Below the pieces are notes generated by a model that saw only the letters and a list, made by a program, of their open reading frames with translations, had not been told where the DNA came from and made no database searches. Positions 29,046-31,965 of a stretch of DNA of 64,000 bases are shown here, piece by piece; the first letter of the stretch is position 1, and every line of letters begins with the position of its first letter. The stretch is taken from NCBI RefSeq assembly GCF_030169785.1, contig NZ_CP125854.1:2170001-2234000 (forward strand), written 5' to 3'. This stretch comes from Bdellovibrio sp. 22V (GTDB lineage: Bacteria > Bdellovibrionota > Bdellovibrionia > Bdellovibrionales > Bdellovibrionaceae). The translations under genes and the position numbers were made by a program.

Positions 29046-29112
29046 CATTAAATCCAATATATTGAGTCTTAATTGGTCCGCCTCTTGCCTTATAGGATTG
29101 CAGGAGGCCCTT

Positions 29113-29769
29113 ATGAAAAACACTTTCTTAACAAAATCTTTGATGGGAGTTTTGGTGCTCGCAGCATTGTCTTTGTCTGCGTGTGCGAAGAAAGACGGAA
29201 GCACAGCTCGCTACGCGGGTCGTGGCACAGGGGTCACTCAAGGCGGCGTTCAAACTCCAAGCTCTTGCGGTAATGCAAACATGGATTGGGGTAAAATCTT
29301 TGATCCTTATGCTTCTCCGCAATTTGAGTCGCAAGTAAAGGGTTTTGTCTCTGCGACTTTAGATCCTCAGTCTTTGGGAACTATCAGCGGTAATATCAAT
29401 GACAGAACGGGCATCGACTTTAAAGGTTCGTTTCAGTTTGATAGTGCAGGCCGTTTGGTGACAGGTTCTTCTTCAATCCACATTAAGATTGTCGACTCAT
29501 ACGTGGGCCAAGTCTACAACGGGCAAACGGTCGCTCCTTATATTGTTGAGTTTAATGCGGCTAGCGAAGGTATGATCAACCGTACAACGCGTCAATTCCA
29601 AGTTAAGTTCAAAGACAGCTATGGTGAGATCATTCTTCAAGGTGCTTACAATAATCAGGAAGCTTCAGGGACTGTGTATTATCAGAACTATACGGCAGTG
29701 AACGGTTATCAAGCATCTAGCGGAACTTTGGGTTCCTTCCGCGCTTACGCTTGCGCCCTTATTAAATAA
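29113..29769 (+). CDS. Small lipoprotein of unknown function
   Basis: A 218-residue protein beginning with a lipoprotein signal peptide MKNTFLTKSLMGVLVLAALSLSAC, lipidated at Cys24. The mature region begins with a Gly/Thr-rich linker and continues as a beta-rich fold with many Gly, Ser and Tyr (FKGSFQFDSAGRLVTGSSSI, GEIILQGAYNNQEASGTVYYQ). Two Cys (SSCGN and YACALIK) may bridge. It has AGGAGG upstream of its ATG and may be its own transcription unit. Family not recognised. Confidence 0.75.
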   Translation: MKNTFLTKSLMGVLVLAALSLSACAKKDGSTARYAGRGTGVTQGGVQTPSSCGNANMDWGKIFDPYASPQFESQVKGFVSATLDPQSLGTISGNINDRTGIDFKGSFQFDSAGRLVTGSSSIHIKIVDSYVGQVYNGQTVAPYIVEFNAASEGMINRTTRQFQVKFKDSYGEIILQGAYNNQEASGTVYYQNYTAVNGYQASSGTLGSFRAYACALIK

Positions 29770-29814
29770 GCGGCGCGTCTTGCTTCACTCCCTATCGAGT
29801 TTGAAGATAGGGAG

Positions 29815-30912
29815 ATGCCTCAACGTTTCATCTTTGATTCTTCTATTTTAAACTCCGTTGTTGGAGGAAAGTCCGCAGTGGATATTCCCAAGTTGAATAT
29901 CCACACTCTTGAGGCGGCCAGTGCTTTTCTTCTGAGCTATGGCTTTGATATCGCCAATCAAGACGATCTTGAAAAGCTTTGGTACTATTATCGTCGCGCT
30001 TTAGTCCTAATGATTGAAAAGTTAGGTTTTACCGAAAGCGAAATTCCTGAAATTCTGCACGACCGCAAACATCTCGGCGATATTCGCCAACTTTTGTTAT
30101 ATGCGAGTTCTGCGGCTCCGAAGGATGAGCAGTTGCAACGCTGGTCCTGTGCCGTTCTTCGCTGTATGCACGTATTCGTTCACGCCGAGAACGATCTTTT
30201 CGGAACTTTTTCGGAAGAGATTCAGTCGCAAATCCTCACGCCTTTTCAAGAACGCATCCGTCATGACGGCACGACTCACCGAACGTTTTTAAGAACAGCC
30301 GAGGATGCGGAGCCGATTGAGCTTTTGGGTTTTGAAGTCAAACCTTTTAAAACTTCCTCCAGCACGGTTATTAAACTTCTCGCAAAGCCCGATGCTTTGG
30401 CGATGAAGATTTTTGATAAACTCGGCGTGCGTTTTGTTACACGCAATCTTTTTGATACTTTCCAAGTCGTGCGTTTTCTTGTTCGCGAAAACGTCATCAG
30501 CTTTCCGCATATTATGCCGGATCAAAGCTCGAACAACTTGTATCCGGTGGATGTTTTCATGGAAGTCGTCGACGATCTTTCGCATCGCCTCGATACTTTG
30601 GATGAAAAGAGCATTCAAGAGGCCTTCGATCAAAAGCTCGCTGAACAAGGTGAAAATGTGAAGTTCCTGCGAAAAGAAAATTTCTTTTCTGGATCAGACT
30701 ATCAGTTTATTAAATTTATTTCGCGCAAACTCATTCATATTAAACCGCAAGGAAGCAAAGAGGCGTTTAGCTTCTTCTATCCTTTTGAAGTTCAGATCAT
30801 GGATGAAAAAGCGCACCAAAAGATTCTCTCCGGCCCGTCAGAGCATCAAGCTTATAAAGAAAGACAAAGAATGGCGGCGCGCAAACGTCTTTTCCCTGAT
30901 TCAGGCTCTTAG
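29815..30912 (+). CDS. RelA/SpoT-like nucleotidyltransferase fold protein (TIGR04552-like)
   Basis: A 365-residue soluble protein. Its second half resembles a (p)ppGpp synthetase fold: SSSTVIKLLAKPDALAMK (181-198) at the RxKxxxS..K position, KIFDKLGVRFV (198-208) at FDLIAIR with the catalytic-type Asp201, a long insertion, SGSDYQFIKFISRKLI (292-307) at GYQSIHT, and FYPFEVQIMDEKAHQ (321-335) at EIQIRTxxMH with Glu325. The N-terminal half is helical. I recall similar proteins under the name TIGR04552, uncharacterised, in myxobacteria and bdellovibrios; this recollection is not verified. The synthetase-specific basic residues are only partly kept, so activity on GTP/ATP is unproven. PlsC starts three bases after its stop. 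Confidence 0.72.
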   Translation: MPQRFIFDSSILNSVVGGKSAVDIPKLNIHTLEAASAFLLSYGFDIANQDDLEKLWYYYRRALVLMIEKLGFTESEIPEILHDRKHLGDIRQLLLYASSAAPKDEQLQRWSCAVLRCMHVFVHAENDLFGTFSEEIQSQILTPFQERIRHDGTTHRTFLRTAEDAEPIELLGFEVKPFKTSSSTVIKLLAKPDALAMKIFDKLGVRFVTRNLFDTFQVVRFLVRENVISFPHIMPDQSSNNLYPVDVFMEVVDDLSHRLDTLDEKSIQEAFDQKLAEQGENVKFLRKENFFSGSDYQFIKFISRKLIHIKPQGSKEAFSFFYPFEVQIMDEKAHQKILSGPSEHQAYKERQRMAARKRLFPDSGS

Positions 30913-30915
30913 TAT

Positions 30916-31653
30916 ATGTTTTGGAAATTGCTTTCGTATCCTCGATCTTTCATCGCGACTATCTTGTTTCCTCTTCACACTATGCTTTGTGCGCTGGCGA
31001 TGATTATCGTCAATCTCACGCTCAACAATCGCAAGATCGAAGATCACATTGTCGAGTTCTGGACCCGCAATGCGTGTCGCATGTTTGGAGTCAAAGTCGT
31101 CGTCAAAGGCCGTGAGAACATCCCGCAAGGCGGTTTTCTTTTCGTCTTTAATCACACAAGCTTTTTCGACATTTTTGCGATGAACGGCTGGCTGGGAAGT
31201 TTCCGTTTTGGCGCCAAGATCGAACTTTTTAAAATTCCCGTATTCGGAGCTGCGATGAGACGCGCCGGCATTCTTCCCATCGCTCGCGAGCGCCGCGAAG
31301 AAGTGTTCAAGGTTTATCAAGCCGCGCAAGCCCGCATCGCTGCCGGTGAACGCTTTGCTCTGGCTCCCGAGGGAACTCGTCAAGAAACAGAACGACTGGG
31401 CAACTTTAAGTCCGGGCCTTTTATTTTCGCGATCAATGCGAAAGCTCCGATTGTGCCGGTGATCGTTAAGGGGGCTGCCGCGATTTTGCCCAAAGGACAC
31501 ACTATTCCCAATTGGGGCGTGTGGAGCCGCACAATCACTTTGCAAGTTTTGCCGCCTGTCGATGCCACTCAATACACAGTTGAGCAGCGCCCGCAGTTGC
31601 AAGAACATGTGCGTAAGCTGATGGAACCTTTCTTTCGCGGGGATGATTTTTAA
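30916..31653 (+). CDS. plsC: 1-acylglycerol-3-phosphate acyltransferase (PlsC family)
   Basis: A 245-residue membrane-bound acyltransferase converting lysophosphatidic acid to phosphatidic acid. Hallmarks: N-terminal hydrophobic anchor, catalytic HxxxxD in NHTSFFD, glycerophosphate-binding FRFGAKIELFKIP and GAAMRRAGILPI, and the EGTR motif in LAPEGTRQE. Length is normal. Translation is probably coupled to the upstream RelA/SpoT-like gene, three bases away with no separate ribosome site. The Mpo1-like gene follows 18 bases later, so the three form one operon with a phospholipid theme. Confidence 0.92.
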   Translation: MFWKLLSYPRSFIATILFPLHTMLCALAMIIVNLTLNNRKIEDHIVEFWTRNACRMFGVKVVVKGRENIPQGGFLFVFNHTSFFDIFAMNGWLGSFRFGAKIELFKIPVFGAAMRRAGILPIARERREEVFKVYQAAQARIAAGERFALAPEGTRQETERLGNFKSGPFIFAINAKAPIVPVIVKGAAAILPKGHTIPNWGVWSRTITLQVLPPVDATQYTVEQRPQLQEHVRKLMEPFFRGDDF

Positions 31654-31671
31654 AAGGGGAGTGAGAGCAAG

Positions 31672-31965
31672 ATGAAGACGTTTCAGGAATTCTGGCCTTT
31701 TTATCTGCAAGAGCACTCTCACCCCACCAATCGCCGATGGCACTTTGTCGGAACACTTTTCGTTCATCTTTTGATTCTCGATGCGGTGATTTCCAGACAA
31801 TGGGTGATCTTGTGGCTTTTACCCGTGATCGGTTACGGCTTCGCTTGGATCGGGCATTTCGTCATCGAAAAAAACCGACCTGCGACCTTCAAACATCCCC
31901 TCTGGTCGCTCCTCGGCGACTTCAAAATGTTTTACATGATGTGCGCGGGAAAGCTTTGGAATTAA
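31672..31965 (+). CDS. Mpo1-like (DUF962) membrane protein
   Basis: A 97-residue integral membrane protein. It shows the DUF962/Mpo1 pattern almost completely: FYLQEHSHPTNRRWHFVG with the conserved His cluster, then AWIGHFVIEKNRPATFKHP and LWSLLGDFKM. Yeast Mpo1 is an Fe(II)-dependent dioxygenase that alpha-oxidises 2-hydroxy fatty acids; a similar lipid role is plausible next to PlsC but unproven for bacteria. GGGAGTGAGAGCAAG precedes the ATG. The stop overlaps that of the convergent SH3-domain gene (TTAA). Confidence 0.88.
   Translation: MKTFQEFWPFYLQEHSHPTNRRWHFVGTLFVHLLILDAVISRQWVILWLLPVIGYGFAWIGHFVIEKNRPATFKHPLWSLLGDFKMFYMMCAGKLWN

Follow-up and report, generated by a model that had tools for sequence, protein, structure and literature searches.

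RelA/SpoT enzymes form the core of bacterial starvation signalling and make ppGpp, and recent work on toxSAS has revealed that the RelA/SpoT fold can turn to other acceptors. The small synthetases RelQ (SAS1) and RelP (SAS2), which belong to Pfam family PF04607, are the closest solved folds to the protein described here. In RelP bound to AMPCPP, R78 and R112 contact the adenine, K80, S84, K88 and R91 contact the phosphates, D107 and E174 bind Mg and H190 contacts the ribose (PMC5794853). FaRel2 uses R64, K66, S70, K74, R77, D90 and R95, and its N-terminal part helps tRNA binding (PMC11782079).

We analysed a stretch of 64,000 nucleotides from Bdellovibrio sp. 22V (the window), which carries a gene starting at position 29,815 (the 29815 gene) whose product appears to be a distant relative of these enzymes. 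The gene and its neighbours are as follows:

29062..29769, + strand: probable lipoprotein gene, 5' of the 29815 gene; the true start may lie within the listed ORF
29815..30912, + strand: 365-aa ORF (ATG start), TIGR04562/TIGR04552 family protein, from NCBIfam, the fold search and family-wide Pfam RelA_SpoT matches
30916-31653, + strand: PlsC-type 1-acylglycerol-3-phosphate acyltransferase (PF01553, 1.6e-26)
31672-31965, + strand: Mpo1-like protein (2-hydroxy-palmitic acid dioxygenase-like), 97 aa (PF06127, 2.8e-39)

Only 3 bp separate the 29815 ORF from the PlsC-type ORF, its probable operon partner, and 18 bp lie between the latter and the Mpo1-like ORF. The host genome (3.6 Mb, single contig) holds one copy of the 29815 gene. 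Its relatives, including one in B. bacteriovorus strain kdesi at 82% identity, point to a place in Bdellovibrio. The probable lipoprotein gene has no Pfam match; tblastn found upstream matches to it in most of the relatives L032-L053 (26-73% identity), and it precedes the synthetase-like gene in most Bdellovibrionales, even where plsC is missing. A perfect 9-bp hairpin (CTCCCTATC-loop-GATAGGGAG) was also observed at 29775-29815, its end abutting the 29815 start codon; the only Shine-Dalgarno-like stretch of the gene sits inside it. Both the hairpin and GCGTCTTG, just before it, are found again in closely related Bdellovibrio and are absent from other genera, and the stem carries paired changes in several of these relatives. 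The hairpin may control translation of the 29815 gene.

Judged by profile scores, the 29815 protein is an ordinary member of TIGR04562/TIGR04552: it reached 396.2 bits against NCBIfam TIGR04562 (cut-off 140), over residues 8-360 of 365, and 395.6 bits against TIGR04552 (cut-off 125). Both models are named merely 'TIGR04552 family protein', a name that holds neither function nor fold, and the link of this uncharacterised family to RelA/SpoT is what is new here. The 29815 protein alone stayed below the cut-off of Pfam RelA_SpoT (PF04607; 14.2 bits against 27, E 0.054), as would be expected if a chance string of motifs lay on an unrelated fold. However, in a family alignment of 44 sequences, 26-82% identical to the 29815 protein, RelA_SpoT matched 40 members at E<=1, with a best value of 1.1e-8, and the next-best Pfam family matched five (E 0.015). 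Furthermore, when 114 genomes were scanned with PF04607, five matches assigned to TIGR04562 by gene position (G096, G032, G067, G091 and G024) scored 27.1-29.0 bits, above the cut-off. These family-wide matches and the fold search below point to one superfamily only, and chance resemblance was rejected as extremely improbable.

Alignment with hhalign placed residues 324-351 (FEVQIMDEKAHQKILSGPSEHQAYKERQ) on EIQIRT...HWKYKE of the Rel from the same genome (single-target E ~0.001) and residues 141-246 on a small-synthetase profile of the same phylum (single-target E ~0.0005), both modest values. Neither phmmer nor profile searches of PDB sequences returned a RelA/SpoT match; weak matches to a chlorite dismutase (E 0.51) and, in the insert region, to a SIR2-like protein (E 0.0095) were judged spurious.

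The structure was predicted with AlphaFold without templates, from an alignment of 22 sequences comprising the 29815 protein and relatives. The model had a mean pLDDT of 70.4 and a pTM of 0.56, with pLDDT <50 at residues 180-201, which hold the ATP helix and the Asp. In a Foldseek search of the PDB, the first 40 rows were all relatives of Rel, RelA, RelP, RelQ or SpoT, at a modest best E of 3.8e-3. VIA-align gave a top Z of 9.6 to RelQ (150 residues, 3.5 A) and about 8.6 to RelP; its first 21 rows were all of the RelA/SpoT family. X-family DNA polymerases, which have the wider nucleotidyltransferase fold in common with RelA/SpoT, came next, at Z <=6.9. A pocket shared by D201 and E325 would follow from their counterparts in RelP/RelQ, the Asp and Glu that bind Mg. 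Profile matches, the predicted structure and the invariant residues of the active site thus back the RelA/SpoT-like synthetase fold proposed by the first-pass annotation and argue against a fold that lacks the RelA/SpoT beta-sheet. Together they support the second half of the protein (~127-350) as a putative, divergent RelA/SpoT-type synthetase domain.

The candidate elements of the protein, in order along the gene, are:

30169..30195, + strand: H119-xxx-H123-xxx-D127, nearly invariant, in the N-terminal helical part (H119 44/44, H123 43/44, D127 42/44)
30340..30375, + strand: motif 1, K176-PF-K179-TSS-S183-TVI-K187, equivalent to RxKxxxSxxxK of RelA/SpoT (ATP phosphates)
30415..30432, + strand: motif 2, D201-KLGV-R206, corresponding to the Asp that binds Mg and the Arg that stacks on adenine (D...A.R), in 44/44 sequences
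30508..30678, + strand: ~50-residue insertion (about 232-288) in the G-loop region; P235, S238 and N240 are conserved
30679..30726, + strand: motif 3, N289..Y296-x-x-I299-K300-F301-x-x-R304, equivalent to N-G-Y-x-S-I-H
30787..30858, + strand: motifs 4-5, E325-VQIMD...G340...H344-QA-Y347-K348, equivalent to EIQIRT...G...HWxYK

The motif string lies where it had first been read, with Asp201 and Glu325 correctly numbered, and its RelA/SpoT order goes beyond chance, since key residues are identical in 44/44 sequences and the Pfam matches are family-wide. Invariant throughout the alignment are K176, K179, S183, K187, D201, G204, R206, N240, N289, R304, E325, Q327, G340, Y347 and K348, and H344 is kept in 43 of the 44. 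By motif position, K179, S183, K187, D201, R206, E325 and H344 would be the counterparts of residues in RelP and FaRel2. The Asp and Glu ligands of Mg (D201, E325), the Lys/Ser/Lys set for the ATP phosphates (K179, S183, K187) and the second stacking Arg (R206) are all present in every sequence, so that the family keeps the Lys, Ser, Lys, Asp, Arg, Glu and His-x-x-Tyr-Lys of RelQ/RelP. The canonical Rel of the same genome reads GRSKHLWSIYRK at motif 1 and DVLAFR at motif 2; the distance between the positions of K187 and D201 is 13 there, against 14 in all 44 family members. The E-Q-I...G...H-x-x-Y-K block is common to the long RSH enzymes (Rel/RelA/SpoT) as well, and its E-to-H spacing of 19 is the same in all 44 sequences and in the genome's own Rel.

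Unlike RelQ/RelP, the family lacks the first Arg of RxK: none of the 44 sequences has R at position 177, which holds P, S, A, H or E instead (P177 in the 29815 protein). QIRT is lost too and has become QI[MVT]D, with R and T replaced by M/V/T and D330. As the first adenine-stacking Arg (R78 of RelP, R64 of FaRel2) and the R and T of QIRT are gone, ATP binding must differ in detail. These losses, and lipid genes that recur as neighbours (see below), would fit a catalytically dead nucleotide sensor of RelA/SpoT fold that regulates a partner, e.g. in phospholipid synthesis. However, at 26-82% identity neither Mg ligand varies and the other residues that contact ATP are nearly all fixed too, which is unusual for a dead enzyme, and we regard such a sensor as improbable.

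On the acceptor side, the distance from D201 to Y296 is 95 residues in the 29815 protein and 86-99 across the family, but 44 in the genome's own Rel. The G-loop as defined in the RelP study (PMC5794853), which in known synthetases holds guanosine, has thus gained ~50 residues. The long insertion noticed ahead of the third element by the first-pass annotation is therefore real. Within it, P235 and S238 are each kept in 43 of the 44 sequences and N240 in all of them, and the class with pgpA as a neighbour has a second insertion of ~30 residues before E325. Position 296, equivalent to the guanine-stacking Tyr, is Y in 35, F in seven and H in two sequences, while position 300, the His of GYxSIH, is Q in 20, K in 18 and H in six. 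An uninterrupted G-loop with GYxSIH is hence absent from the family, given the insertion and the change of His to Q/K in 38/44. Some members retain YxxIH or YRSLH, and a divergent member on MW495066.1 reads QYRSLH, near the canonical motif.

The protein could be an ordinary extra alarmone synthetase, making (p)ppGpp or pGpp from ATP and GDP, GTP or GMP under its own regulatory domain and tuning lipid synthesis to growth. The catalytic Mg and ATP Lys/Ser residues are retained, an aromatic residue stands at the guanine-stacking position in most members, some of which keep YxxIH or YRSLH as above, and ppGpp restrains phospholipid synthesis in E. coli. Against this, the loop for guanosine carries ~50 extra residues, K or Q mostly stands in place of the His of GYxSIH, the first Arg and QIRT are lost, and the genome already has a canonical Rel. 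On balance we find an ordinary alarmone synthetase doubtful; read from the conserved residues, the rebuilt acceptor site favours an acceptor other than plain GDP.

Compared with RelQ/RelP, the family adds an N-terminal helical domain to the G-loop insertion. Residues about 1-127 are helical, and W110 is nearly invariant among the 44 sequences, like the H119/H123/D127 set. Predicted alone, this part reached a pLDDT of 74 and resembled no known fold to a significant degree, its best structural match being RbcX (Z 5.0, rmsd 14). Among the 44 members there was no Pfam match to an HD hydrolase. The 29815 protein differs from the long RSH enzymes in having no Pfam match to a TGS/ACT tail, as it ends ~15 residues past the synthetase domain, and in its length of 365 aa as against about 750.

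The family is widespread within its phylum. TIGR04562 was present in 261 of 291 sampled genomes of Bdellovibrionota and in none of 14 control genomes, and the 20 listed genomes that lack it are mostly small (1.2-2.4 Mb). A RelA_SpoT match was also found in 108/114 sampled genomes, nearly always in a protein of at least 700 aa, and the genome of the 29815 gene has a separate canonical Rel in a 750-aa open frame. Apart from Rel and TIGR04562, extra RelA_SpoT-domain proteins of ~340-460 aa were seen in single genomes (L086-L092). No plasmid relatives were found, and none in the viral database IMG/VR were confirmed. One divergent family member lies in a record labelled 'Microcystis phage MaAM05' (L055, MW495066.1 111546-136610), flanked by glyS, secDF, scpAB, fabI and gatD; the record looks like a piece of bacterial chromosome filed as phage. 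The family protein encoded there has <=38% identity, over most of its length, to that of any sampled genome of the phylum.

This distribution bears on a further possibility, a toxSAS-like pyrophosphokinase that would act not on guanine nucleotides but on adenine nucleotides or on an RNA 3' end. The toxSAS enzymes (FaRel2, CapRel and relatives) have the synthetase fold, an N-terminal extension and an altered acceptor site, all of which are found in the 29815 family too; the remodelled acceptor loop and the extra N-terminal helical part, comparable to that of FaRel2, speak for this possibility. However, the toxSAS hallmarks, namely an adjacent antitoxin or a fused neutralising domain and a mobile and patchy distribution, are absent from the 29815 family, which has no antitoxin-like partner, is near-universal in its phylum and keeps a conserved gene order with plsC or pgpA. 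PADLOC yielded no match of weight, only stray single-member ones, and a role as a defence system was rejected. We therefore consider a toxSAS-like enzyme unlikely.

Comparison of the 29815 gene with close relatives gave pN of 0.12-0.18 and pS of 0.73-0.81, with synonymous sites near saturation; the gene is under strong purifying selection. When Bdellovibrio sp. NC01 was evolved over 40 passages, the orthologous gene, listed for a 'TIGR04552 family protein', lost one base in line B, where this deletion passed 75% (PMC9888234, Table 1). This frameshift indicates that the gene is dispensable in some conditions: its loss was tolerated, and perhaps selected under those conditions.

The first-pass annotation had placed the gene in an operon with plsC and the Mpo1-like gene and tied it to lipid synthesis. 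The gene order is present in the window and the plsC part was borne out, with plsC following on the same strand in each of the 22 relatives L032-L053; over the loci scanned it was downstream in 33, within 600 bp in 30. In contrast, a conserved link to Mpo1 was rejected: apart from the window, a single close relative among L032-L053 (L052) has the Mpo1-like gene alongside. Support for the lipid tie came unexpectedly from another class, where pgpA (PF04608, phosphatidylglycerophosphatase A) stands head-to-head within ~150 bp in 30/30 loci L002-L031 and in further families; the identity of pgpA was checked with Pfam in four loci, and some loci appear twice under different ids in these neighbour counts. 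Lipid-gene neighbours as a universal rule were rejected, since 21 scanned loci had neither plsC nor pgpA within the stretch examined. Families f12, f15, f18 and f23 are examples; the genes next to theirs include one for a protein of 450-480 aa with a GYF-like start or, in one family, genes similar by eye to a pseudouridine synthase and rimO. In another family (L067, L068, L073, L079, L081 and L101) the gene is followed directly by two large genes in an apparent operon, one of them unassigned and the other with several iron-sulphur domains (Fer4, Fer2).

With plsC in one class and pgpA in another, the lipid link recurs in two lineages without being universal. This gene order suggests that the product or acceptor of the 29815 protein may be linked to phospholipid synthesis. 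CDP-diacylglycerol is an intermediate between the PlsC and PgpA steps. It would be a long shot that the family forms a new class of RelA/SpoT-fold pyrophosphokinase, conserved across the phylum, with an acceptor from membrane lipid synthesis (e.g. a lipid-linked nucleotide such as CDP-diacylglycerol), or that it makes a new nucleotide signal setting phospholipid output.

Our preferred reading, at a probability of roughly 0.65, is that the 29815 protein is a relative of the RelA/SpoT fold and most likely an active ATP pyrophosphotransferase whose acceptor is probably not plain GDP, as judged from conserved residues and the predicted structure. Such an enzyme would move the beta,gamma-pyrophosphate of ATP to a hydroxyl of the acceptor, probably a ribose 3'-OH. 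The acceptor, probably not simply GDP/GTP, would be held by the rebuilt G-loop through N289, the aromatic residue at 296, R304 and the insertion with P235/S238/N240, and the N-terminal helical domain with H119/H123/D127 would likely be a regulatory or acceptor-binding part. The gene is a long-standing one of the phylum, kept alongside canonical Rel. We have filed the 29815 protein as a TIGR04562 member and a RelA/SpoT synthetase homologue, not as a (p)ppGpp synthetase.

The claim about the fold stands: the family is a phylum-wide branch of the RelA/SpoT synthetase superfamily that has so far gone unannotated; its catalytic residues are conserved and its acceptor site is rebuilt. The link gives a functional hypothesis for a family annotated by number alone, of which an evolved Bdellovibrio population lost one member through a frameshift. 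With a small gene, named candidates for the catalytic residues and a genetically tractable laboratory organism in B. bacteriovorus, the question can be tested directly. A housekeeping branch of this kind, with catalytic residues intact across a whole phylum and a rebuilt acceptor site, points to an undescribed signal or modification in these bacteria.
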